From Candidatus Eiseniibacteriota bacterium (GTDB lineage Bacteria > Eisenbacteria > RBG-16-71-46 > CAIMUX01): 64,000 nt of DNA. Shown here in pieces: positions 33,148-51,200 of this stretch (positions are counted from its first letter, which is position 1; every line of letters starts with the position of its first letter). Made by a program: the position numbers and the translations under genes. Where the stretch lies: the NCBI GenBank assembly GCA_029569475.1, contig JAKQSZ010000007.1, positions 61,470-125,469 of the forward strand, written 5' to 3'. The notes beneath the pieces are model-generated. The model saw nothing but the letters and a program-made list of their open reading frames with translations. It ran no database searches and was not told the DNA's origin.

Positions 33148-36129
33148 TCAGGGCAGAAGGATGACGCGAAAAGCGATCGCCCGTTCCGCGCCTCCTCGGG
33201 CGGCCTCCCGGGCCAGCAGGCGCCCAAAGTACACTCCGGCCGGACAGCGGCGTCCGTCACGATCCAACGGACTCCATGCGACCTCGTGAGGCCCGGCGGG
33301 AAACGGCCGTGCCGTTGGCGCATCCCCGACCAGGCGGCCTGCGGCGTCGTGGACGGACAAGGCGACCACGGCGGGCGAGCTCAGAAGGAATCGCAAGGTG
33401 GCGCCGAGGGCCGACGGGTTGGGGGCTGGCGTCGCGAGCAGGGTCAGGAAGGCCCCTGAATGGGAGAGCCCGGGCGCGGCCGACACGCCCGACTCGGTGA
33501 TCGTGATCCTCTGGTCGGCCGCGAGCCCGGGCGGAAGTTCCTGCACGATGCCGCCGGGCCAGTAGACCCGCAGCGTGTCCACCGTGGCGGCCAGGCCCAG
33601 ACCGAAGTGGGCCGTCGCGGCGCTCTGACCCATGAGCCCGTTCTCGGCGCCGATCTCGCGGATCTGGGTCTGTCCTCCCGCCGTCACGAGGACGCGGGCC
33701 CCGATTCCCCGGGAGTTCGAGGCGGCCCCGCGCAGATCGACCTCGAGCCAATGATTGTCCGATCCGCCGCGATTGCGGAAGAGCTTGTTCCAGTTCGTTT
33801 CGTTGGCGACGAACAGATCGAGGTTGCCGTCGCCGTCGTAGTCCGCCCAGCCAAAGCAAACGCCCAGGCCCATGTCGTCGACGGGGTAGGAGGCCAGGTC
33901 GGTGAACATCCCTCCGCCGTCGTTGCGGAAGAGCCGGTTGCGGGCGCCGCGGCAGACGAGGTAGATGTCGAGATCGCCGTCGTTGTCGAAGTCTCCCCAG
34001 GAGGCGCAGCGTCCGGGCCCGGCCGAGGACAACACCTCGCTCTCCACCTCGCTGAAGGAAGCCCCGTCGTTGCGATAGAGCATGGCGCGCCCGGAGGAGG
34101 AGACGACCAGAAGATCGAGATCGCGGTCGTTGTCGAAGTCTCCCCAGCAGGCCGACGCGCTCAGACTTCCGCCCCCCAGCGGAGGAGCCGTGACATCCAC
34201 GAAAAGGCTGTCGTCGTTACGCAGGAGCCTGTTCGAGCCGCTGCCCACCCCGGCGACGTAGAGATCGGGATCGCCGTCGCTGTCATAGTCGCCCCAGGCC
34301 GTGTCGCGGGAGTTGACCGAGTCCTGCGGCACCAGGTGCGTGATGTCGGTCCATCCCGCCTCGCCATCGTTGCGCAGGAAGATGTCCGGCTCCAACCCCG
34401 AGCGGGTGAGGTAGACGTCCAGGTCGCCGTCGCGGTCGAAGTCGATCCAGCCGGCTTCCTGCTGGTCGCCCCCCGCCGCAAGCGGCGCGGGGGTATCGTC
34501 GACGAAGACGCCCGACCCGAGATTGCGGAAGAGGCGGTTCTCCGAGCGCCGGTTCACCGCGTAGAGGTCGAGCAGGCCATCCTGATCGACGTCAGCCCAC
34601 GCCGCCGAGATCCCGTCCCGGGGGTCGGCCAGCGGCGGGCCCGAGACGTCGGTGAAGGTCCCGTCGCCGCCGTTGCGGAAGAGGCGGTCGGCTGAATCGG
34701 GCGAGGCCAGGAAGAGATCGGGGAGCTGGTCGCCATCGAAATCTCCCCAGGAGACCGCCTGCGGGCCGGGGGCGCGAAGGGCGAAGGTCGAACGGTCGTC
34801 CCAGGCCGGGGACGGCAGGTTGGGCGTGCAGCTTCCATGCTGGAAGAGCGCGTAGATCCCGCAGGCGGAGGTGAACACGCCGGTGGCGTCGTGCCCCACC
34901 CCGGGGATCACGTAGAACTGGTGCCGCGCGATGATGCCTGCGCCGAAGATCGCGCGAAGATAGCCGCGGTAGAGCAAACCCCGCTGCAGGCGGTGCTCGC
35001 CCTGGAGCATGGCCGCGCAGTTCCGCTCCAGGTACCGCTGGTTCGGGTCGATGTCTTTGCCGCCGAGAAGATACTGCACGAGGCGGCTGGAGTAGCGCTG
35101 GCGGAGCGTTTCCGCTCCCTGGTTCATGTACTCGTTGGGATCCCGCAGGCCGTACTTGTACAAGTCGTAGTCCGGACAGCGGCTGATCTCCTCGGGAGGG
35201 GGAACGGCGTAGAAGTTGTTGAGGCCCGGTGTCCACCGGGTCTCGTCGAGGTAGAGATAGCACGAGGGGTTGGCCACCACGAAGCGGAGGGTGATGCCGA
35301 ACTGGTCGCGCAGCTCCTCGACCAGCGGGGTGCCGGCGGCGTAACGGTTGACGAACTGGCCCCCCGCCGAGTGACCGGCCACCACGATCGTGGAGAGCCC
35401 GGGGCTCCTCCGGGCCAGACGATGGATCATCGAGTCGAGGACCGCAAAAGAACTGAGCGCGGCCGGCCGCGGGTGATCCAGGGTGCTGTGCGAGGAGTCC
35501 CCCTGGCGCCAGCCCATGTATTTCCAGAACAGGAACGTGTCAGGCAGGGTATCCGCGGCCACGTCGGCCTCGGTGAGGAACTGCGGGGCGATGAGGTAGG
35601 CGGTCGAGTCGGCCCCTGGCACCTCCTGGGACGCCTCCAGCACGGCTTGCAGGTAGTCGCGGGCGTTGCGCAATGTGCCGTGGATGGAGAAGACGGCCCG
35701 GGTTGCCGCGGGGTGTTCTTCCTCCAACAGCGCGGGAGAGAAGTAGGGAACGGCGAACGGTTGGCCGCTGACCTGCATGACGAAGGTGGTGTCGCTGATC
35801 TCCCGTTGCACGTCGCTGGTGTCGGCGTCATCCGCGAGAGGGAATCCGCGGGTGAGGTCCCAGCCAGGCGTCCAGTAACCCGACGGCGCGTCCAAGCCTG
35901 GTGTCGCATCGTCCGGTGGCTGGGCAAGGCTCGGCGCCCCGGCGTCGAGCGGCGGGTCTTCGGTGCCCGCTCCCGCCGTCGTGCCGAGGGCGGAGATGGC
36001 CAGGAGTCCCGCCAGCAAACCCCCGGCGGCCGCCTTCCGGTGGGGCCGAGACAAGAAACGCCCGATGAGGGACGAGGCGCGCGCCTCAGGGATGGTGCGC
36101 GATTCAGGGGGAATGCGCGATTCAGACAT
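33148..36129 (-). CDS. Exported alpha/beta hydrolase fused to seven FG-GAP repeats and ASPIC/UnbV
   Basis: 993 residues. Signal segment, then residues about 110-440 form an alpha/beta hydrolase: Ser254 in AGHSAGGQ is the nucleophile, and GVGHDATGVF near its end supplies a candidate His. Seven FG-GAP/VCBS repeats follow (WGDFDGDQLPDLFLA, WADVDQDGLLDLY, WIDFDRDGDLDVYL and so on), with DxDxDG calcium loops. Then comes an ASPIC/UnbV domain (NSRGIGARVLVTAGGQ, LRVYWPGGIVQELPPG) and a C-terminal FlgD-like domain (LSVHDAAGRLVGD). It is probably a cell-surface enzyme; the substrate is unknown. The start lacks a Shine-Dalgarno but has an extended -10 nine bases away. Confidence 0.82.
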   Translation of the reverse strand: MSESRIPPESRTIPEARASSLIGRFLSRPHRKAAAGGLLAGLLAISALGTTAGAGTEDPPLDAGAPSLAQPPDDATPGLDAPSGYWTPGWDLTRGFPLADDADTSDVQREISDTTFVMQVSGQPFAVPYFSPALLEEEHPAATRAVFSIHGTLRNARDYLQAVLEASQEVPGADSTAYLIAPQFLTEADVAADTLPDTFLFWKYMGWRQGDSSHSTLDHPRPAALSSFAVLDSMIHRLARRSPGLSTIVVAGHSAGGQFVNRYAAGTPLVEELRDQFGITLRFVVANPSCYLYLDETRWTPGLNNFYAVPPPEEISRCPDYDLYKYGLRDPNEYMNQGAETLRQRYSSRLVQYLLGGKDIDPNQRYLERNCAAMLQGEHRLQRGLLYRGYLRAIFGAGIIARHQFYVIPGVGHDATGVFTSACGIYALFQHGSCTPNLPSPAWDDRSTFALRAPGPQAVSWGDFDGDQLPDLFLASPDSADRLFRNGGDGTFTDVSGPPLADPRDGISAAWADVDQDGLLDLYAVNRRSENRLFRNLGSGVFVDDTPAPLAAGGDQQEAGWIDFDRDGDLDVYLTRSGLEPDIFLRNDGEAGWTDITHLVPQDSVNSRDTAWGDYDSDGDPDLYVAGVGSGSNRLLRNDDSLFVDVTAPPLGGGSLSASACWGDFDNDRDLDLLVVSSSGRAMLYRNDGASFSEVESEVLSSAGPGRCASWGDFDNDGDLDIYLVCRGARNRLFRNDGGGMFTDLASYPVDDMGLGVCFGWADYDGDGNLDLFVANETNWNKLFRNRGGSDNHWLEVDLRGAASNSRGIGARVLVTAGGQTQIREIGAENGLMGQSAATAHFGLGLAATVDTLRVYWPGGIVQELPPGLAADQRITITESGVSAAPGLSHSGAFLTLLATPAPNPSALGATLRFLLSSPAVVALSVHDAAGRLVGDAPTARPFPAGPHEVAWSPLDRDGRRCPAGVYFGRLLAREAARGGAERAIAFRVILLP

Positions 36130-36233: not shown

Positions 36234-37382
36234 TCAAAGGCCGAGCCAGCTCGAGATGATGTTCCGCTGCATCTCCGAGGTTCCCGAGTAGATCGTGCTT
36301 CCCACCGAGTCGCGCACGGCGCGCTCCACCTGGTACTCCGTGGTGAAGCCGTAGCCGCCGTGGATCTGGACGGCGTCCAGGGAAGACTGGACCAGCGACT
36401 CGCTCACGAAAAGCTTGGCGATGGAGGCGTCCAACGAGGCGCTTCGGGCCCGGTTCAGGCGCCAGGCCGCGCGGTAGACCAGCAGGCGCGCCGCCTCCAC
36501 CCGCACCTTCATGTCGGCGACCCGGTTGGAGATGGCGGGGAACTTCGCGATCGGCTTGCCGAACTGCTGGCGGGTGCGCGCGTACTCGATCGACTTCTCC
36601 AGCAACCGGTCCATGTTGCCCACGTGGTAGGCGAAGAGGCAGGTGCGCTCCCAGTCCATCGAGTGCGTGAAGAGCGACGACCCGCCGCCTTCTCCGCCCA
36701 GGACCGCGTCCTCCGGCACCCGGACGTCCTCCAGGATGATCTCCCCCAATGGCGAGGTGCGCAGGCCCATCTTCTCGATCTTGTGGCCGAGCTGCAGGCC
36801 GGGGGTGTCGCGCTCGACGAGGAACGCCGTAACCCCGCCGTGGTAGCCCTTCTCCGGGTCGGTCATCGCGAAGAGGACGAGCACGTCGGCGATGGGGCCG
36901 TTGCTGATGAACATCTTGGTGCCGTTCAGCCGATAGCCCGAGCCTTCCTTGACGGCGCGGGTGGTCATGGCGAACGCGTCCGAGCCGGTGTTGGGCTCCG
37001 TCATGGCGTTGCCCGCGATGATGTCCCCCTGGCACATCCCGGGGAGGTACTTCCGCTTCTGTTCGGGCGTGCCGAACTTCGCGAGCGGGACCGCGCAGGG
37101 AAGCATGTGGGCGCACAGCGCGAAGACCAGGCCGGAGTCCTCACAGGCGTAGCCGAGCGCTTCCAGGGCCAGCGCCGTCCCGAGCGCATCCAGGCCGAGG
37201 CCGCCGTACTCCTCCGGAATCGGCAGCCCGGGCAGCCGCATGTCGCCGCACTTCTTCCAGAGGTCGCGCGAGAACAGCTGCTCGCGGTCGCGCTCGATCA
37301 TGCCGGCATTGAGCTCCTTGCGCGCGAACTGGATGATCGCCTCGCGGAGAGCCTTTTGTTCATCGCTGATGGAGAAGTCCAT
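36234..37382 (-). CDS. Acyl-CoA dehydrogenase-type flavoprotein, probable prolyl-carrier-protein oxidase
   Basis: 382 residues from ATG 37382, with AAGGGAG eight bases upstream. Full acyl-CoA dehydrogenase fold: AMTEPNTGSDAFAM, MFISNGPIADV, RQQFGKPIAKFPAI, QIHGGYGFTTEY. The C-terminal catalytic Glu of short-chain enzymes is replaced by Ser366 (IYSGTSEMQ), but Glu245 in MDWER occupies the isovaleryl-CoA dehydrogenase position, which is also the base reported for prolyl-carrier oxidases such as AnaB. It lies last in an operon with a carrier protein and an adenylation enzyme, as in pyrrole-2-carboxylate pathways. A plain beta-oxidation enzyme is the alternative. Confidence 0.78.
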   Translation of the reverse strand: MDFSISDEQKALREAIIQFARKELNAGMIERDREQLFSRDLWKKCGDMRLPGLPIPEEYGGLGLDALGTALALEALGYACEDSGLVFALCAHMLPCAVPLAKFGTPEQKRKYLPGMCQGDIIAGNAMTEPNTGSDAFAMTTRAVKEGSGYRLNGTKMFISNGPIADVLVLFAMTDPEKGYHGGVTAFLVERDTPGLQLGHKIEKMGLRTSPLGEIILEDVRVPEDAVLGGEGGGSSLFTHSMDWERTCLFAYHVGNMDRLLEKSIEYARTRQQFGKPIAKFPAISNRVADMKVRVEAARLLVYRAAWRLNRARSASLDASIAKLFVSESLVQSSLDAVQIHGGYGFTTEYQVERAVRDSVGSTIYSGTSEMQRNIISSWLGL

Positions 37383-37470
37383 CGGGTCGTCTCCCTTCTG
37401 GGCTGCCGCCTCGCGGCAGGCCGTACGTCGGCTCGATCGCCGGCTGGTTCGGGGCGCGTAAGGACGGCGG

Positions 37471-39168
37471 TCAGGGCATGGTACGGAGTGTCTGGTAGTC
37501 CGTCTTGTCGGTCGATGTCTTGGGCAGGGACTCCAGCGCGACAAACTCGTCGGGGACCATGTAGCCGATCAGGTTCTCGCCGCAGAACTGCTTCAGCCGG
37601 ATGATCGAGACCTTGCCGGAGCGGAAGGCGAGGAAGGCGCGGATCTTCACGCCGCTCTCCTCGTCGGGGACCGCGATCACCGCCGCCTCCTTCACCTCGG
37701 GGTGACGGTAGAGGGCCGCCTCGATCTCTCCGAGTTCGATGCGGAATCCGCGCTTCTTCACCATGCGGTCGCGCCGTCCGGCGAAGAGGAAGTCGCCCGA
37801 CCCGTCGAGAGTCACGACGTCGCCGGTGTGGTACCAGGAAGCGCCGCGGGCGTCGGTCGTGAGCACCGCTTCAGTCAAACCGGGCGCCCCCCAGTATCCC
37901 CGCATCACCCCAGGGCCCGAGATCCAGAGCTCGCCCGCCTGCCCGGGCGCCGCGTCCTGTCCGTCCTCATCGACCACGCGCGCGCGGTAGTGCGGACAGG
38001 TCCGGCCGATCGGATAGGGCTCGAGGCGGTCGTCCGGGATCCGCGCCGGCACCTCGAAGAACGTACAGACGTTGGTTTCCGTCGGGCCGTAGAGGTTGAA
38101 GTACCGGGGCTGGGGCCACAGCTTGCGGAGGGCGCGCAGGTGGCGGATCGGGAAGACCTCTCCGGCAAAGTGGACGATCCGCAGCCGGCTGTAGTCGTAC
38201 CGCTCCAGGTGGCCGAACTGCGTCAGGAGGCTCAGCACGGACGGGGTCGAGTACCAGCAGGTGATGCCCGTCTCGGAGATGAGACGGGCCAGCGTCACCG
38301 GATCCTTCCCGGCCGTCTCGCTGATCAGCACGAGGGTTGCGCCCTGCCTCAGCGGGACATAGATGTCCAGCACCGAGAGGTCGAAGTGAAACGGCGCATG
38401 TGAGGAGAACCTGTCCTCGTCCCGCGGCTCGAAAGCATCGCCGCACCACTCGACGAAGCACAGGGCGTTGCGGTGAGAGATCATGACCCCCTTGGGCCGT
38501 CCGGTGGAGCCCGAGGTGTAGAGGATGTAGGCCAGGTCGTCTTGGTCCGGAACCACGGTGGAGCTGGGCGGGGCCGGATCCTCGGCCTGGAGCCGGTCCA
38601 GGAGGCGCGCCAGGGGCCACGCGGGAGACTGTGACGCCGCGGCCGCTTGATCCAGCGGCGCAAGGCGTGCACCGGCGGGCGGAGTGGCCTCTTCCGGGGC
38701 GGGCGGGGTGCGCTCGACGGCCAGCAGGGCCACGTCCTCGCCCCAGCCTTCCCAGGCCTGGACGATGGCGTCCGTGCTGGCGCTTTCCACGATCACGGCG
38801 CGGACCTGACAGTCCCGCAGGATGTAGGCGTTGCGCTCGGGCGGCGCCGAGGCGTCGACCGGAACGTGCGCCGCGCCGCACTTCATGATCCCGAAGATGG
38901 CGGCCACCGCATCGATCGACTTGCGCAGGCAGATGCCCACCCGGTCGCCCGGCCGGACCCCGGCGTGCCGTAACCGGTCGCGCATCCGGTCGCTCAGAGC
39001 GTCCAGGCCCGCGTAGGTGATAGCCCCGACCCCCGGGTCCTCGACCGCGGTGTGTCCTGGCCGCCGGCGCGCGCTGGCTTCCAGATAGCCGTGGAGCGAA
39101 GCAGCGCGTCCATCCGGCCGCTCCGCCGCGCGCACGCAGGTTGCTTCCATTCCGTTCCAGCCTTCCAT
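37471..39168 (-). CDS. Amino acid adenylation enzyme, predicted L-prolyl-AMP ligase
   Basis: 565 residues from ATG 39168; AGGAGG lies 11 bases upstream inside a repeat unit. Adenylation motifs: LAYILYTSGSTGRPKG (A3), HFDLSVLD (A4 with the amino-group-binding Asp), NLYGPTETN (A5), WYHTGD (A7), FAGRRDRMVKKRGFRIELGE (A8), LPKTSTDK (A10). Reading the ten specificity positions by eye gives D-L-L-Y-H-A-L-V-C-K, nine of ten equal to the code I remember for PltF/RedM prolyl ligases (DLLYLALVCK). It should load proline on the carrier protein encoded upstream. No condensation domain is present. Confidence 0.82.
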   Translation of the reverse strand: MEGWNGMEATCVRAAERPDGRAASLHGYLEASARRRPGHTAVEDPGVGAITYAGLDALSDRMRDRLRHAGVRPGDRVGICLRKSIDAVAAIFGIMKCGAAHVPVDASAPPERNAYILRDCQVRAVIVESASTDAIVQAWEGWGEDVALLAVERTPPAPEEATPPAGARLAPLDQAAAASQSPAWPLARLLDRLQAEDPAPPSSTVVPDQDDLAYILYTSGSTGRPKGVMISHRNALCFVEWCGDAFEPRDEDRFSSHAPFHFDLSVLDIYVPLRQGATLVLISETAGKDPVTLARLISETGITCWYSTPSVLSLLTQFGHLERYDYSRLRIVHFAGEVFPIRHLRALRKLWPQPRYFNLYGPTETNVCTFFEVPARIPDDRLEPYPIGRTCPHYRARVVDEDGQDAAPGQAGELWISGPGVMRGYWGAPGLTEAVLTTDARGASWYHTGDVVTLDGSGDFLFAGRRDRMVKKRGFRIELGEIEAALYRHPEVKEAAVIAVPDEESGVKIRAFLAFRSGKVSIIRLKQFCGENLIGYMVPDEFVALESLPKTSTDKTDYQTLRTMP

Positions 39169-39172
39169 TCTG

Positions 39173-39279
39173 GTCACGCCCTCCTGATGGGGCACGTTTT
39201 GCGGTCGGGTCACGCCCTCGTGATGGGCACGCCCTGCGGACGGGTCACGCCCCCGTGATGGGGCACGTTTTGCGGACGG
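39173..39279. repeat. Three 36-base units between carrier protein and ligase genes
   Basis: Units at 39173-39208, 39209-39243 (one base shorter) and 39244-39279; a partial fourth copy runs into the carrier protein stop codon. Only the unit next to the ligase start contains AGGAGG on the minus strand, so one diverged copy may serve as its ribosome site. Confidence 0.85.
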
Positions 39280-39280
39280 G

Positions 39281-39535
39281 TCACGCCTTCTTGGACTCCA
39301 CGAACGATGCGATCTGGTCGATCGTGTTGAGGTTCCCCGCCCCGACCTCGTGGGCGGCGAACTCGAACCCGAAGGTCTCCTCCAGATAGGCCACGAGCTT
39401 GAGGGTGGCGAGCGAGTCGAGGATGCGGCCGCTGATGAGCGGGAGATCGTCGGTGAGCTGCTCAGGATCCTCGCCGGGGAGGAACTCCTTGAGGATGTAC
39501 TCCCTGACCCGGGTCTTGATGGTGTTGTCCGACAT
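39281..39535 (-). CDS. Stand-alone acyl/peptidyl carrier protein
   Basis: 84 residues. Ser41 in RILDSLATLKLV is the phosphopantetheine site. The pattern LPLISGRILDSLATLKLVAY and FGFEFAAHEVGAGNLNTID matches free carrier proteins found beside adenylation enzymes in Dlt and pyrrole pathways. AAGGAGG precedes ATG 39535, inside the last 74 bases of the MBOAT-SGNH gene, so the two overlap. It should carry the prolyl and then the oxidised acyl group. Confidence 0.9.
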   Translation of the reverse strand: MSDNTIKTRVREYILKEFLPGEDPEQLTDDLPLISGRILDSLATLKLVAYLEETFGFEFAAHEVGAGNLNTIDQIASFVESKKA

Positions 39536-42038
39536 CGGTCCTCCTTAGAGCGTTCTGGTTCTGGCGGATGGCATCGTAAAGACGGGCCGCCACCAGCCTG
39601 TGCCCCTCCGGGTTGGGATGGTCGTCCCAGGGGGCCAGGTGCAGCGACTCCGCGGGGCGGCCGTCATAGACCCCGCTCAGATCCAGGGTCAGCAGTCCCG
39701 ACGTTCGGGCCAGATCGAGGATGGCGGCCGCATCCAGGTCATAGTCGTGCTTGGACAGAATCGGCAGGAAGACGGCGACGCCCGCGACGCCGCGTTCCTG
39801 GCAGCGGGCCGCGATCTCGTGGTACGTCCACGAGAGCAACTCGGCCTTGTGCTCAGCGAGGACGCGCCTGCCGGTCGCCTCCGGGGTTCCGGGGGTGACG
39901 CCATGGCGAGCCGCGAAGGCGACAGCGCCTTCGTAGGGGACCGGGACCTTCGCATCCATCAGCTTGCAGAGCCGCTCGACCGCCAGGTGCGCGTCCAGCG
40001 GATGAATCACGTAGAAGACGGACGCGGGGGAGAAGTCGAAGACCTTGCTTTCGAGCTCGGCCAGCACGTCCAGCGCGCTGTACCCCTCCACCGCGAAGTT
40101 CAGGATCTCGTAGGAGCCGTGCGGCTCGCCCCGGGCCTCGCGATTCAGCCGTTCCTCCAGCAGCGACTCGAAATTCTCCTCCAGAAGCACGCCGCTGCCG
40201 AAGGTGTGGGAGGCGCCGACCAAAGCGATGCGGTAGGTGCCGGGCGCGGGGGTCTTCTCGTAGTCCCGGTCCCGCATCCCCCAACGGTTGATCGTGACCA
40301 GCGTGCCGCGATGGCGCGCCTGCGCCTGGGGGACCAGTTCGAGGTAAGGCAAGCCTTCCCGCAGCCGGCTGAGTTCCGGGCGGAAGCGGATCGAGCCCCA
40401 ATCCGCCGGACGCTCCATGTACACCTTCATCAGCTCGGGATTGTCCCAGCCCACGTCGTTGAGCTGTTCGTAGTAGTCCCGCTGGCGGCGCGCCTTGTCC
40501 CGGTCATTGAGGGCGGAAGACTTCACGCCCTTGATCACTGCCGCGGTCTCGGGCTCGAGGCGGGTGTAGAAGGATGGGGCGGCGACCGCCAGGAGCACGG
40601 CGACGGTGGCGCCGTTGCGTCCGACATCCTTCCAGAAGTGGAGGGGTCGCGCCGGACGTCGCTGGTAGAAGATCGAAATGGCCACGTAAGCCGCCACGCC
40701 GGCGGCCAGGGCCGGGATCAGCCAGAGATCCGCCGCCGTGGCCGTACCGAGGACGCCGAACAGAGAGGCCCAGTCGACCACCGACTCCGAGATCCAGAGC
40801 GACCAGAGGACGCAGATGGTCGCGAAGACGCCGAGCGACTTCAGCCCCGTCACCGCCATGCTGGAGAACGGGATCTTCGCCGCGCCCAGCTTGCGCCGCG
40901 CCGGCTTGACCGTCTCGCGGACGACCCCGATCGCGACCAGCACGGCCAGAACGGTCCAGAAGAGGGTGTCGCTCCACGTCAGCAGGAAGGAGCCGCGGAT
41001 CCAGAACCACTGGTAGGAGTGCAGGAACCAGGTGGCGAAGAAGACCCAGAAGGTCCCGAGCACCAGAGCCCGGAGATTGCCCAGCCGGCGGAGCTTGAAG
41101 AAGGCGGGGTAGTAGAAGACCTTCATCATGAAGTCCTTCCAGTAGATATTGATCCGCCTCCAGAAGTCCGTGAAGCTCGTGCTGAGGTAGAACAGGTGGT
41201 GCGTCTCCGGCAGGTTGAATCCGAAGAGATGCAACATGCCGATCACCATGTGAAAGAGGCCGGAGACCTGCAGGTAGAGCAGGAAGGGCCACAGCAGGTA
41301 CCGCAGGAGCTGCGGCACGTCCGTCACCGCGGTCGAGTCGATGGGCAGGTGCTGGTAGACCAGACGATACAAGATGAGCTGGATGCCGCCGCGCAGGATC
41401 CAGGAAATGCCCGTCTGGTAGATCGCGTGCCGGTCCTTCTGGTCGTAGTGCGAGCGGCAGAAGCTCTGGTAGTCGACCACGGGGAAGAGCGGGAAACAGA
41501 CATTGGGGATCATGAAGAAATAGGACACCGCGTGGGAGAACGAGGCGGGAGCGTTGCGGTGGCGGAGGTCGTAGACGTAGATGATCAACCGGAGCATGAA
41601 CATCGAGCCGAGCACCGGCCAGATCGCCGACGACCAGGGGAATGCCAGCGATCCGCTCCTTTGCAGGGCGAGAGCCAGGACGGCGGCGGCCAGGAGTCCG
41701 AGGCGGGCGGCGAAGGGAACAGGCAGATGGCACAACCCGATCAGGGCCAGACCCAGGCCGATCAGCCACGCGCCCTGGGCCAGTCCGAAGATGACGAAGA
41801 CCGAGCCGAGCGAAAGCGCGGCGAAGGCATGCAACCGCAGGCGCTGCGGCAGGAAGTAGTGGAACATGAACCCGGCCCACGTCAGCAGCGCGAGCTTCTG
41901 GAAGGCCAGACCCTCGATCTGGTACCAGCGCGTGGTCACGTAGAAGACCAGGATCAGCTGCAGGCTCAGCGCCAGGAAACGGGGGATCGAGATCTGCGTC
42001 GACGTGGCCGAGGTCGTCGTGGAAGTGCTCAAGCTCAT
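39462..42038 (-). CDS. MBOAT acyltransferase fused to an SGNH domain (DltB-DltD-like)
   Basis: 858 residues from ATG 42038, with AAGGA upstream. Residues 20-490 hold about twelve membrane segments with the MBOAT signature: SFTDFWRRINIYWKDFMMKV at 288-307 and the candidate catalytic His340 in WFLHSYQWFW. After the last membrane segment, residues about 590-820 form an SGNH domain: Ser610 in GASHTFGSG and DDHPNPEGH at 805-813. In Dlt, MBOAT DltB moves a carrier-bound amino acid across the membrane with the SGNH-like DltD; here both are one chain. The last ~30 residues overlap the carrier gene and look non-homologous. Confidence 0.85.
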   Translation of the reverse strand: MSLSTSTTTSATSTQISIPRFLALSLQLILVFYVTTRWYQIEGLAFQKLALLTWAGFMFHYFLPQRLRLHAFAALSLGSVFVIFGLAQGAWLIGLGLALIGLCHLPVPFAARLGLLAAAVLALALQRSGSLAFPWSSAIWPVLGSMFMLRLIIYVYDLRHRNAPASFSHAVSYFFMIPNVCFPLFPVVDYQSFCRSHYDQKDRHAIYQTGISWILRGGIQLILYRLVYQHLPIDSTAVTDVPQLLRYLLWPFLLYLQVSGLFHMVIGMLHLFGFNLPETHHLFYLSTSFTDFWRRINIYWKDFMMKVFYYPAFFKLRRLGNLRALVLGTFWVFFATWFLHSYQWFWIRGSFLLTWSDTLFWTVLAVLVAIGVVRETVKPARRKLGAAKIPFSSMAVTGLKSLGVFATICVLWSLWISESVVDWASLFGVLGTATAADLWLIPALAAGVAAYVAISIFYQRRPARPLHFWKDVGRNGATVAVLLAVAAPSFYTRLEPETAAVIKGVKSSALNDRDKARRQRDYYEQLNDVGWDNPELMKVYMERPADWGSIRFRPELSRLREGLPYLELVPQAQARHRGTLVTINRWGMRDRDYEKTPAPGTYRIALVGASHTFGSGVLLEENFESLLEERLNREARGEPHGSYEILNFAVEGYSALDVLAELESKVFDFSPASVFYVIHPLDAHLAVERLCKLMDAKVPVPYEGAVAFAARHGVTPGTPEATGRRVLAEHKAELLSWTYHEIAARCQERGVAGVAVFLPILSKHDYDLDAAAILDLARTSGLLTLDLSGVYDGRPAESLHLAPWDDHPNPEGHRLVAARLYDAIRQNQNALRRTDVGQHHQDPGQGVHPQGVPPRRGS

Positions 42039-46328: not shown

Positions 46329-48104
46329 TCAGCGGCTGCTGTCGGGCGACCTCGTGTCCGCGCTCCCTTCGGTCAGCTTGCGTAACAGCGTGTAGGGGCC
46401 ACTTTGCAGGACAACCTCGGATGAGGCGGTGAGCCACGCCGTGTCCATCCGGGCCAGGCGGCCCTCGAGCTGCGGATCGATGACCGCCCACGCGGCGCCC
46501 TGCTGCCAGAAGAGCCGGGCGCGCTCGTGCGGTTCGAGAGCGCTCTTCGGATCGAGCGTGCGCCGCATCCGCGCCGACTGCTCCTCCAGGTCGACCGACT
46601 GCGCCCAGTGCCCCCAGATGACGGTGTTGCCCGCGTAGGCCGGGATCACGCGGCTCACGGGATACGAGGAGAGGACGACATCGGAAGCCCGCGTCCGCTC
46701 GCGCAACGCGTCGAGGACGTCCCGGATCTCGTCCGAAAGATAGTACACCTCGCGCGCCGAAGGGAGCCGGCAGGTCTCGAGCTGGGTCGCCACGACATGC
46801 AGCGTCGTCGGGATCGTCAGCGCGACGGCCAGGATGATCAGCCGGACATCCCGGCACGTCGCGTGAAGGCCGATGGCGGCCAGCACGCAGATGGGAACGT
46901 GCACCCCGAAGAGGAATTTCCGCTGGAACCATACAGGCAGGTAGGCGAAGGCCAGACCAAGCGCCATCCAGAGCGCGAGCGGCCAGATGGCCGCGCCCGT
47001 CACGCCGTGGCCGCCCCGGCTGCACCGGCTGTCCGATTCCGGTCCGCGGCGCATCGTGCCGGCGCCGGGATCGCAGGCGGCGGTGGGACCGGCGACCTGG
47101 CGCCGTCTCGCCGGCCCGCGATGGGCCAACGCCAGCGTCGCGTAGATCAGCGGCAGGCCGCAGCCGATGAGAAGGGCGGCCGGCGTGGGGCTCTTCATCA
47201 GGCCCCGCTCGGCATGGGCAGCCAGGAGCGGGTGGGCCGAGGACTGCCACACGACATAGACCATCGGCAGGGCGGCCGTGGCCGCGATCGGCACCCACGC
47301 CCGCCAGGCGCGCCGGCCCAGGGACCGGACGGTGACGATGGCGATGAAGGCCGCGAGCAGGGGCGCCTGGTACGGATGGATCAACAACAGGCCCGCCAGG
47401 CAGAGTCCCGCCAGCCACCAGCAACGCGGCATGCCGTCCGATGGCGGCCGGCCTTGCGCTCGCTCGGTGCCCCGCAGGACGAGGAGGATGGTTGCCGTGA
47501 TCAAGGCGAGCGAGTACGGAAAGAGCGGGTTCCAGAGCAGCGACCAATAGGTGTTGAGGTCGACCAACTCGAGGTCCGCCGGCCGGAGCGCGCGGGCGGC
47601 GTCGCCGAGCGCCCACAGGAGCGGACCGCCGGCGCCCGACGAGAGGCCGGTCAAGGCCGCCGCCGTGATCCTGACCTTCCGCGGCAGGGCGAGCCATCGT
47701 AGCAACGCGAAGAAGGTCAGGAAGAAGAGCGCGACCCCCACCGACTTCAGGAGCAGCAGGGCGACGGCCGGCGGCAACCCCGTCGCGCGGCAAATCCACC
47801 CGGACAGGAGAAAGAAGGGCTGGAAGACGAAGCCCTCGTGGGGCAACGCCGTGTACTTGAATCGGAAGAGGAGCGCGCCGTCCATCGCCTGCCGGACCCA
47901 TGAGAGATAGGCGTAAGAGTCGTCGGGGTAGGGCGGCAGGATCCAGGTGTAGGCGGCGCCGGCCGGTGTCCAGGCGCGGGCCGCGAGATAGGGAACGATG
48001 GTGAGGAGGATCATGAAACCGATCCAGGCCCGTTCGAACCGCCGGAATTCGCGGGGCTCGCGCGAAGCCGGGAGTGCGGCTCCGCCCTGCTCCTCCTCGC
48101 CCAT
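46329..48104 (-). CDS. Polytopic membrane protein, possible GT-C glycosyltransferase
   Basis: 591 residues from ATG 48104. One membrane segment near residue 30 is followed by a loop with PPYPDDSYAYLSWVRQA, whose acidic pair resembles the catalytic loop of GT-C glycosyltransferases, then about nine further membrane segments and a soluble C-terminal part (SDEIRDVLDALRERTRASDVVLSSY). GT-C enzymes move sugars from polyprenyl phosphates; the assignment here is tentative. No Shine-Dalgarno; a -10-like TAGGCT sits seven bases before the start. Confidence 0.6.
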   Translation of the reverse strand: MGEEEQGGAALPASREPREFRRFERAWIGFMILLTIVPYLAARAWTPAGAAYTWILPPYPDDSYAYLSWVRQAMDGALLFRFKYTALPHEGFVFQPFFLLSGWICRATGLPPAVALLLLKSVGVALFFLTFFALLRWLALPRKVRITAAALTGLSSGAGGPLLWALGDAARALRPADLELVDLNTYWSLLWNPLFPYSLALITATILLVLRGTERAQGRPPSDGMPRCWWLAGLCLAGLLLIHPYQAPLLAAFIAIVTVRSLGRRAWRAWVPIAATAALPMVYVVWQSSAHPLLAAHAERGLMKSPTPAALLIGCGLPLIYATLALAHRGPARRRQVAGPTAACDPGAGTMRRGPESDSRCSRGGHGVTGAAIWPLALWMALGLAFAYLPVWFQRKFLFGVHVPICVLAAIGLHATCRDVRLIILAVALTIPTTLHVVATQLETCRLPSAREVYYLSDEIRDVLDALRERTRASDVVLSSYPVSRVIPAYAGNTVIWGHWAQSVDLEEQSARMRRTLDPKSALEPHERARLFWQQGAAWAVIDPQLEGRLARMDTAWLTASSEVVLQSGPYTLLRKLTEGSADTRSPDSSR

Positions 48105-48111
48105 GGCCGCG

Positions 48112-48140
48112 AGCCTAGCAGAGGCGTTGGGCTCATCCAA
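48112..48140 (-). promoter_or_regulatory. Candidate leaderless promoter of the membrane protein gene
   Basis: TTGGAT (48140-48135), 17 bases, TAGGCT (48117-48112), then seven bases to the ATG. Transcription would start at or beside the start codon. The -35 match is poor. Confidence 0.35.
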
Positions 48141-48225
48141 GCCGGCTCCCGTCGCGCGCGGAGGCTGAGGCGCGCCGAAAGTCCGTGGTGGTGCGCCGCG
48201 CCGGGGGCAGGCACACTGGGAGGTC

Positions 48226-51200
48226 ATGTCCGAGCAAGCCCGCAGAGCGAAATCTCGCCGCCTCCCCCTGACCGGCCCCGCAGATCAAACCGGCACGCCG
48301 GCGCCCGGATCGCGGCCGGGGGACACCAGAGCTGGTCCGGTTCGACACTGCCGGATCGAGGGGGCCCGCACGCACAACCTCAAGGCGATCTCGTGCAGCA
48401 TCCCTTTCGGGCGCTTCACGCTGGTCACCGGCGTTTCCGGTTCCGGGAAGTCGAGCCTGGTCTTTGACACGCTCCATGCCGAGGGACACCGCCGCTTTCT
48501 GGACTGCCTCTCCACCTACGCGCGCCAGTTCCTGCAACGGCCGGAACGCCCTGACGCGGACCGGATCGGTGAAATCCAGCCGCCGGTGGCCCTGACGCAA
48601 CGGAACATGATCCGCAACGCCCGCTCGACGGTGGGCATGCTCACCGAACTGGGCGACCGGCTGCAAATGCTCCTGCTGCAACTCGGGACCATGCACTGCC
48701 ACCGGTGCGGCGCGCCGATGAAGTCCATGCGGTTCGATGACGGCGTCGAGGCCATGCTCTCGGCGGATCCGGCCTTGAAGTGGATCCTGGCCGCGCCGAT
48801 CCCCCCGGGGCCGGTGCGGACGTCCGATGGATTGCCGCTCGTGTCGGAGTCCGCGGAAGGCAGACTCGAAGCGCTGGCCCGGTCCGGTTATACACGGATC
48901 TACCGGGATGGAAGGATGATCGAGTGGGAGAACGCCGGCGAGCAGGCGGTGGAGGCGATCCGTCCTGTTTCAACGGGGCGGCCAGGCGATCAGGGAGGAA
49001 GCCAGGAGCGGGGTTGGTCCGGCACCCGGCCCGCGGGCGAGATCCTCCTGGTCATCGATCGATTCGTCTCGGGTTCGCTTGTGCGCAGCCGGGCCCGGGA
49101 GTCGCTCGAGGCGGCCTGGCGCCTGGGGGAAGGGACGGCGGTGCTCTTCGCGCTGGGGCAAGCGGAGCCGGCACGGATCCTGACGGAAGGCCTGCAGTGC
49201 GAGGCGTGCGGCGCGCGCGCGGAGTTGCCGCACCCCAAGGTCCTCTCCGCCGACAGCCCGCTCGGCGCCTGCCGTCGTTGCCAGGGCTTCGGCCGTGTCA
49301 TCACGGTCGACCGGGCGAAGGTCGTGCCGGACCCGTCCCGATCGCTGCGCGGACTCGCCGTGGTTCCCCTCTCAACGGAGAGGGGGCAGGATGCCTTTCG
49401 TCTGATGCTCCGCCTTGCCCGGGCGCGCGGCATTCCGTTGGATGCCCCCTTCTCCAGCCTCGATGAGGAGCAGCGGGAATGGATCTTTCGCGGCGATGTC
49501 TCGCCCACCGGGTCGCGGACCGCCTTCTGGCCGGGAGTCGAGGGTTTCTTCCGCGACCTGGAGCGCAAGCGGTACAAGGCCCACGTGCGGATCTTTCTCG
49601 CCCGCTTCCGGGCGTATGTGCCGTGTCCGGACTGCCGCGGCTCCCGGCGCGCGCCCGAGGCGCTGCGCCTGCTGTGGCGGGGGCACACCATCGACGATCT
49701 GGAGCGGCTCTCCATCGGAGAGATCGCGGACATGGTCGACTGCGTGGAGTTGACCGCGGTCGAGGAAGATCGGTCCGGATCGCTGGTGCGGGAGACGGCG
49801 GCGCGTCTGCGCAGCCTTACGGACATCGGCCTCGGCTACCTCTCTCCCTCGAGAAGCGCGCGTACCCTGAGCGGAGGCGAGGTCCAGCGGGTACGGCTCG
49901 GCGCCGCGATCGGCAGCGCGTTGACCGAGACGTTGTACATCTTCGACGAGCCCACCACCGGACTTCACGCCTTCGACACCGCCCGGGTCCTGCGCTCGAT
50001 GCGGCGTCTGTGCGAGTCCGGCAATACGGTCGTGGTGGTCGAACACGATCCGGCTCTGCTGGAGCACGCCGATCATCTCATCGTGCTCGGGCCGTCCGGC
50101 GGAGAGGCGGGCGGATGGGTGCTGTACGAAGGACCGCCGGCGGAGTTCACCCGGCAACATCCCGGTTACTTCCGCGTCATCCCGCTCGAGGAGAACGCTT
50201 CGGAGGTCGCGGACGGCCCGGTGGCGGATGGCGTCTCCGCCGAACGCCGGCCCGCCCATGGGGCATTGCTGACGCCAGCGCGGGTAACGGATGTGATGAG
50301 ACCGGCCCGGGTCTCGGAAGAGACCGCGGCGACCAGGGTATCTGAGAGGAGTCGGCCGGCTCGGATCTCGGAGGTGGACTCGCCGGCGCTCATCCTGCGG
50401 AATGTCCGGCAGCACAACCTGGACATCCCTCTTCTCTCCATCCCCCTCGACCGCCTGGTCGTGGTTACCGGGGTTTCCGGATCCGGCAAGTCGACGCTGC
50501 TCGACGACGTTCTCTACCGCAATCTCCTGCGAGGGCGGGGCAGACCCGCCGACGAACCTGGTGTCGTGGCGTCGCTGGAAGGCGGGAGCCTGATCGGCGA
50601 AGCATTCCTTCTTTCACAGTCGCCGTTGGGACGATCGATCCGGTCCAACATCGTCACCTACCTCTCGCTCTACACCGCAGTCCGATCCCTGCTGGCCCGC
50701 ACGCCGCGGGCGCGGGCCCTCGGGCTCGAGCCCGGCGCCTTCTCGTTCAACGTTCCGGGCGGCCGCTGCGAAGCTTGCCAGGGACTGGGCACCGTGACGG
50801 TCGAAATGCACTTCCTCTCCGACCTGGAGATCGCCTGCGAGGCCTGCCGGGGCCGGAGGTTTCGCGAAGACGTTCTGGAAGTGACGTGGCGGGGACGGAA
50901 CATCATCCAGATCCTCGACCTGACCGTCAGCGAGGCGCTGGAGTTCCTGGAGGATCTCCCCGAAACCGCGGCGCGCCTCTCGCCCCTGGTGGAGGTCGGC
51001 CTGGACTACCTGAGGTTGGGGCAGAGCACCGCCACGCTTTCCGGCGGGGAAGCGCAGCGGCTGCGCGTGGCCTCTCTCCTGGCCGAAGGACGCAGCGCCC
51101 GGCGTGCCGCGGCTGCCGGCCGCAAACGTTCCGGCGGCGCATCCTCGGGCCCGGGGACCAACCTCTTCATCTTCGATGAGCCCACCGCCGGCCTGCACCC

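Follow-up and report, generated by a model that had tools for sequence, protein, structure and literature searches.

The stretch of DNA considered here (the window: 64,000 nucleotides of contig JAKQSZ010000007.1, from a Candidatus Eiseniibacteriota bacterium) carries on its minus strand four genes in the order MBOAT-SGNH fusion, carrier protein, adenylation enzyme and acyl-CoA-dehydrogenase-type flavoprotein (ACAD). The fusion and carrier genes overlap by 74 nucleotides (nt), the remaining intergenic gaps are 67 and 88 nt, and AAGGAGGA precedes the carrier start codon. The window sequence thus confirms the four-gene minus-strand operon that had been claimed in an earlier reading of the bare letters (the sequence-only reading). 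The features of the operon are as follows.

39462..42038, minus strand: MBOAT-SGNH fusion, 858 amino acids, recognised by homologues, predicted fold and invariant residues; membrane acyltransferase half at about residues 40-430, then more helices, a flexible YYE loop (522-524) and the SGNH half at about 560-832
41019..41021, minus strand: codon of H340, the putative MBOAT histidine by its family, kept at 80 of 80 loci
40470..40475, minus strand: codons of Y522 and Y523 (80 of 80), one of which may shuttle the acyl group, as the analogy of PatA and DltX suggests
40209..40211, minus strand: codon of S610, putative SGNH nucleophile, 80 of 80
39618..39626, minus strand: codons of D805-D-H807, putative SGNH block V (D805 78 of 80, H807 79 of 80)
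39281..39535, minus strand: free carrier protein, 84 amino acids, phosphopantetheine Ser in DSL (PF00550)
37471..39213, minus strand: stand-alone adenylation enzyme, code DLLYHALVCK (TIGR01733, pocket matches, code)
36234..37382, minus strand: ACAD-type flavoprotein of the prolyl-carrier dehydrogenase group (hidden Markov models, PDB matches, tree)
36648..36650, minus strand: codon of Glu245, where prolyl-carrier dehydrogenases have their catalytic base; all 46 rows with a residue here have Glu

The adenylation enzyme is, as judged from its sequence, of the proline type. Its domain lies above the cut-off of TIGR01733 and below that of the DltA model TIGR01734 (272.6 vs 559.85). An in-frame piece covering the pocket has as its top PDB matches 6o6e and 7thn, both L-proline--[L-prolyl-carrier protein] ligases (131.6 and 82.6 bits), and scores lower against D-alanine ligases (73.9 and 68.3 bits). 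According to the accessible part of PMC3874040, L(L/F)YLALVC is the consensus code of stand-alone, as opposed to modular, L-proline adenylation domains. This exact string is present in 42 of 53 sequences (52 loci and the window, leaving out L059 and L067 as weak and L071 and L078 for a stop inside the match), and the codes of the window and L045 are one residue off, His replacing one Leu of the consensus. Two aligned D-alanine ligase chains read DLMVFCTVA and DLMTMCTVA. The prolyl-like code DLLYHALVCK, first read by eye, is therefore upheld with its single H-for-L difference; prolyl ligases score best, no grouping with D-alanine ligases occurred, and D-alanine specificity is rejected on sequence grounds, by code and ligase scores.

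The flavoprotein finds 4irn, a prolyl-ACP dehydrogenase, as its best PDB sequence (405.6 bits), followed by 5zw0 (343.1 bits). These two, with 6af6 (like 5zw0 an L-prolyl-PCP dehydrogenase) and 6cxt (a butyryl-CoA dehydrogenase by name), make up the four top matches, and the next is an acyl-CoA dehydrogenase at 299 bits. The sequence-only reading had placed Glu245 at the AnaB-type base position and Ser366 where short-chain-type enzymes have Glu, and the family agrees, with Glu in all 46 rows readable at position 245 and Ser in all 45 readable at 366; four weakly matching loci (L016, L018, L040 and L056) were omitted. At the base position 6af6 has Ala where 5zw0 has Glu. An unrooted tree built from 49 rows separates the family, 5zw0 and 6cxt from an acyl-CoA dehydrogenase and a paralogue with support 100/99, and no grouping with beta-oxidation enzymes occurred; its references are few (an acyl-CoA dehydrogenase, a paralogue and two of prolyl type) and sit on long branches that drew a warning from the program, and five of seven Mesorhizobium rows are left out.

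The carrier matches PF00550 with 22.7 bits (cut-off 20.8), and a DS[ILMV] motif is found in all 66 aligned carriers, window included. It also scores 109.6 bits against NF052616, under the cut-off of 130. That model describes a carrier tied by NCBI to the ornithine-lipid genes OlsH and OlsI; the ornithine-lipid lead was dropped, the OlsH operon having no named carrier gene in the accessible part of PMC12493201.

Homologues of the fusion number 3292 among 7996 scored candidates, and those 54-61% identical include one labelled Candidatus Eisenbacteria. The membrane half has a predicted MBOAT-like fold with DltB as its best structural match. This assignment comes from fold comparison alone: none of 25 members of the fusion alignment matches PF03062 (MBOAT) at E 0.1, and a profile of the alignment found no MBOAT among PDB sequences. 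N297, H340, Y522, Y523 and S610 are identical at all 80 loci compared, N297 being the likely Asn partner of H340, and the putative SGNH catalytic Ser, Asp and His (S610, D805, H807) are kept nearly throughout. The two tyrosines lie in a loop (residues 522-532) with a model confidence (pLDDT) below 50 and, mostly, the motif RGYYExL. The SGNH half (model residues 530-824) has its best PDB match in CgnD from crocagin biosynthesis, and the match takes in the segment that precedes the core SGNH fold. Five loci (L014, L018, L044, L052 and L064) have 2-4 MBOAT-SGNH matches each, several in tandem, which may point to more than one acceptor or site for a single acyl group.

Does the gene set hold together elsewhere? 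A genome-collection scan gave 228 relatives, of which the best 80 are covered by the locus counts, gene content being called by tblastn with the window proteins. The fusion is accompanied by carrier, adenylation enzyme and ACAD at 45 loci, by carrier and adenylation enzyme at 9 (among them L054, so counted since its ACAD, at 364 bits, just missed the 50% identity limit), by carrier and ACAD at 2, by the carrier only at 9 and by none of them at 15. Incomplete loci are often at contig ends, which is not the case on the 3' side for L036, L057, L058, L065, L067, L072 and L080. The 45 full loci span nine named phyla: Pseudomonadota (28), Planctomycetota (4), Hydrogenedentota and Gemmatimonadota (3 each), Acidobacteriota (2), and Rhodothermota, Verrucomicrobiota, Calditrichota and Myxococcota (1 each), with one locus unclassified. 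Gene order is also kept. A strong adenylation match is present at 54 loci, 52 of them with room behind it, and an ACAD follows directly in 44 of these 52, with a median gap between matches of 6 nt. At two of the other eight (L042 and L049) the ACAD lies beyond the carrier, on the opposite side, and three of the remaining six genomes carry a RedW-model match elsewhere (414-426 bits). The threshold for a prolyl-type ACAD was taken as at least 350 bits in the RedW model; 9 of 14 control genomes have matches to this model, always under its cut-off, with values that drop from 353.6 to 284.5.

Close relatives tell the same story, in two sets whose centres were picked for carrying the operon. Around Pseudothauera (G003), 6 of 150 related genomes have the fusion and 6 the adenylation gene (E 1e-110); five are shared, all with the genes adjacent (hypergeometric P 6e-8). 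The sixth fusion genome (G043) has a carrier and an adenylation gene behind the fusion, and in the sixth adenylation genome (G109) a contig edge cuts a fusion gene, leaving its end. Among 199 kin of Mesorhizobium (G002) the fusion occurs in 7, each time beside an adenylation gene, which is found in 8; the eighth (G287) has it at 44% identity and lacks the fusion. Taken together, 13 of 13 fusion genomes among 349 have the adenylation gene beside the fusion. The expectation that the genes would be neighbours in related genomes therefore holds. The full set occurs in strain-named records of Mesorhizobium, Pseudothauera, Methylomonas, Microvirga and Aromatoleum, so that its chemistry can be sought in culture. 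Pairs of adenylation enzyme and ACAD at L090 and L092 (ACAD 44-45% identical to that of the window), with no fusion within the fetched 4 kb, are perhaps other users of proline chemistry.

Clustering of flanking frames from the 80 loci and the window gave, beyond core and antisense frames, no cluster in more than 11 loci, and hence no fifth conserved gene; frame picking was crude, antisense frames being chosen at times, and the 11-locus cluster holds a GT4-like gene. In the window, an FG-GAP protein (33148-36129) is encoded on the same strand, 104 nt past the ACAD gene; it combines seven FG-GAP stretches with UnbV/ASPIC and a FlgD-Ig tail below cut-off. It was rejected as an operon member, its tblastn match being confined to one of 80 loci (L056). 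A long hydrophobic frame at 46329-48227, also on the minus strand and with no Pfam match, may by eye be a GT-C-type enzyme.

The donor of the fusion would be the carrier protein, because a carrier matches at 65 of the 80 loci and because at L059 and L080 a carrier and a fatty-acyl ligase-like gene adjoin the fusion. Such a ligase-like gene adjoins it at L067 as well, and at all three loci the best NCBIfam model of the ligase is PRK09192 or PRK07768, under cut-off. These three loci, few as they are, suggest that the carrier is what the fusion recognises, with the ligase setting the acyl group; they are perhaps a carrier-fed fatty-acyl variant of the same exporter.

What, then, would the operon make? 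From its parts we infer a carrier-protein-dependent acylation system that turns proline into pyrrole-2-carboxyl and places it in an extracytoplasmic ester, most likely on a glycan, a scheme that we narrowly favour. L-proline would be activated by the adenylation enzyme and joined to the phosphopantetheine of the free carrier, where the flavoprotein would oxidise the prolyl group, most likely removing four electrons and so giving pyrrole-2-carboxyl. Next, the MBOAT half would accept the acyl group from the carrier on the cytoplasmic side and move it across the membrane onto one of the two loop tyrosines, Y522 or Y523, that lie ahead of the SGNH half. S610 would take it from the tyrosine and form an ester with an extracytoplasmic acceptor, most probably through a sugar hydroxyl of a glycan that is secreted or lies at the surface. 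Export is assigned to the fusion because of its predicted fold and invariant residues. The activation, oxidation and export of proline put forward in the sequence-only reading are thus supported in part: the prolyl-type adenylation enzyme, the prolyl-group ACAD and the predicted MBOAT-SGNH fold speak for them, and the reactions themselves keep the status of a proposal.

Two kinds of neighbouring gene bear on the product. Six of 80 loci carry halogenase-like frames, eight in total, as found with a profile built from seven of them; all seven inspected have WxWx[IL] and five have FxxPx[FY]SxG. The protein at L053 has the flavin-dependent halogenase 5bva, presumably Bmp2, as its best PDB match (235.9 bits; PltA 118.2). 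A gene at L013 was not counted, its best match being 3nix, a flavoprotein/dehydrogenase (349.1 bits). Related Na/H-exchanger-type genes stand beside the halogenase-like genes at L053 (8068-9510) and L062 (4300-5604), in two different phyla, perhaps for halide or pH handling. At L047 a short frame (2065-2247) between adenylation enzyme and fusion has a flavin-halogenase-like start (GGGPAGSAAAT) and then breaks off.

The second kind concerns glycans. GT4-like genes were found by profile at 18 of 80 loci. PF13692 has 358 matches in 14 genomes totalling about 77.9 Mb, and in the flanks of those 14 loci (about 222 kb) at least 10 scanned proteins match it, against about 1 expected; these comprise 8 of 86 proteins in one scan and a further one in each of two other scans, and the genes cluster, the GT4 profile finding them at just 4 of the 14 loci. 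The flanks of L053 hold two GT4 genes, SIS and inositol-phosphatase genes and a weak match to GT9, and those of L060 (Microvirga) a polysaccharide-export-type gene. At L005 (Mesorhizobium ventifaucium) a row of PMT_2, UbiA, HAD and GtrA genes precedes the fusion and a GT4 gene lies behind the ACAD; the best model of the UbiA protein is decaprenyl-phosphate phosphoribosyltransferase, under cut-off. A glycan is our best guess for the acceptor.

Several observations weigh against the proposed scheme. The window ACAD reaches neither the PigA model NF053553 (467.9, cut-off 500) nor the RedW model NF045652 (428.4, cut-off 650); 6cxt likewise falls below both (430.4 and 392.3), and 5zw0 passes the PigA model (702.4) and is PigA-like by this measure. 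The nearest PDB match of the window ACAD is 4irn, which we take to be the two-electron enzyme AnaB, rather than 5zw0. In three of the six genomes that have an ACAD neither behind the adenylation gene nor beyond the carrier (L024, L055 and L064), nothing exceeds 268 bits and a prolyl-type ACAD is absent. Where the fusion is unlinked or at a contig end (11 genomes), five genomes have a prolyl-type adenylation gene elsewhere and six have none at E 1e-60. The loop does not match FXYXXF, the hexapeptide of the acyl-Tyr shuttles of the MBOAT-SGNH type in the accessible part of PMC12148441. None of five halogenase-like proteins compared with NCBIfam reaches the cut-off of its best model, the CmlS halogenase, all being far under it. 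Profile searches of 24 kb around the window operon gave neither a halogenase-like nor a GT4-like frame, and the 18 GT4-like loci include six from Mesorhizobium and four from Microvirga. No other locus, even in Mesorhizobium, has a relative of the lipid-linked-sugar row of L005. The literature matches listed do not report pyrrole-2-carboxyl esterified to a bacterial polysaccharide, an absence that says little.

Among the alternatives, the acceptor could be a small secreted natural product or a lipid, and the operon a compact tailoring cluster. The isolation of the L005 sugar row raised our estimate of this alternative and lowered our confidence in the proposed scheme and in glycan decoration; we regard it as unlikely, although a serious contender. 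Neither polyketide synthases nor non-ribosomal peptide synthetases are among the families shown for the scanned flanks (in one scan 25 of 111 families), a weak argument, and known MBOAT-SGNH pairs act on envelope polymers as described in the accessible part of PMC12148441.

A second alternative keeps the route and changes its product: the ACAD might stop after two electrons, giving a pyrroline-carboxyl (dehydroproline) group, or plain L-prolyl might be exported where no ACAD is present, and the cationic or imine ester would then sit nearer to D-alanylation. The nearness of 4irn favours this, as do the three genomes with fusion, carrier and adenylation enzyme and no prolyl-type ACAD. The halogenase-like genes argue for an aromatic pyrrole, because halogenation would fit an aromatic ring, and the window ACAD outscores 6cxt, which we assume to be Bmp3, the pyrrole-forming tetrabromopyrrole enzyme, in the PigA model. 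A pyrroline or prolyl ester thus seems rather improbable, and pyrrole is clearly the likelier end point of the oxidation.

Could the fusion instead be an ordinary acetyl-CoA-dependent acyltransferase, with the pyrrole cassette beside it by chance? MBOAT-SGNH pairs other than Dlt evidently use acyl-CoA (PMC12148441, in its accessible part), and 15 of 80 fusion loci lack all three partners, many of these being at contig ends. The gene order and carrier linkage kept across phyla, and the pairing of the fusion with carrier and fatty-acyl ligase-like genes, make this very unlikely. That the operon holds fatty-acid degradation genes with a generic ligase, as two parts from the large ACAD and AMP-ligase superfamilies might suggest, is effectively ruled out by Ser at the short-chain-type Glu position, the conserved E245, the separate tree group and the proline code.

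Among the acyl groups of bacterial envelopes, acetyl and D-alanyl are the most familiar. The proposed scheme, taken at its widest, would be a widespread, undescribed envelope decoration in which aromatic N-heterocycles (pyrrole-2-carboxyl, halogenated at some loci) are placed on extracytoplasmic glycans by a one-chain MBOAT-SGNH exporter that uses the invariant Tyr-Tyr pair as its shuttle, and in which the pyrrolyl or fatty-acyl cassette could be swapped because the exporter reads a carrier protein; we offer this wider picture tentatively, thinking it somewhat less than an even bet. If the scheme is right, a proline-derived aromatic ring exported in several phyla would be a new surface chemistry, natural-product carrier chemistry would be joined to envelope modification, and the one-chain enzyme would let the proposed acyl-tyrosine relay be tested directly. 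The bacterial MBOAT cases in the accessible part of one review (AlgI, PatA, DltB and WssH; PMC9558356) include none of the present kind. Among the matches listed in a search of titles, abstract starts and term counts, with subscription journals mostly outside it, none ties an MBOAT to proline or pyrrole carrier chemistry, which is weak evidence; the individual parts are of known kinds, and a description of the four together was not found there.

The closest comparison is with the Dlt system (DltA, DltB, DltC, DltD and DltX). Both have a stand-alone adenylation enzyme, a free carrier and a DltB-fold MBOAT with a conserved His, and in both the final transfer would fall to an SGNH protein. Here, in contrast, the code is of the proline type and not for D-alanine, an oxidising flavoprotein is added, and MBOAT and SGNH form one chain with no separate DltD. 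The full set, moreover, comes mainly from phyla that are customarily classed as Gram-negative; fusion, carrier and adenylation enzyme occur also in Anaerolineales (L034, L047 and L055). Trios that convert proline to a pyrrolyl-carrier are familiar from prodigiosin, pyoluteorin and clorobiocin biosynthesis (PigI/PigG/PigA, PltF/PltL/PltE, RedM/RedO/RedW). The operon shares with them the adenylation code, the carrier, the prolyl-carrier dehydrogenase group and, at some loci, halogenase-like genes, but differs in its linked membrane acyltransferase and in an ACAD below the NCBIfam PigA and RedW cut-offs. PatA and PatB, which O-acetylate peptidoglycan, likewise combine MBOAT and SGNH with a candidate acyl-Tyr shuttle between them, whereas here there is a single chain, a carrier would replace acetyl-CoA, and YYExL stands in place of FXYXXF. 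The AT3-SGNH fusions OafB and OatA, finally, resemble the fusion in that a single polypeptide probably brings the acyl group through the membrane and delivers it to its own SGNH domain; the present enzyme would do so with a predicted MBOAT fold, not AT3, and probably from a carrier-bound donor.

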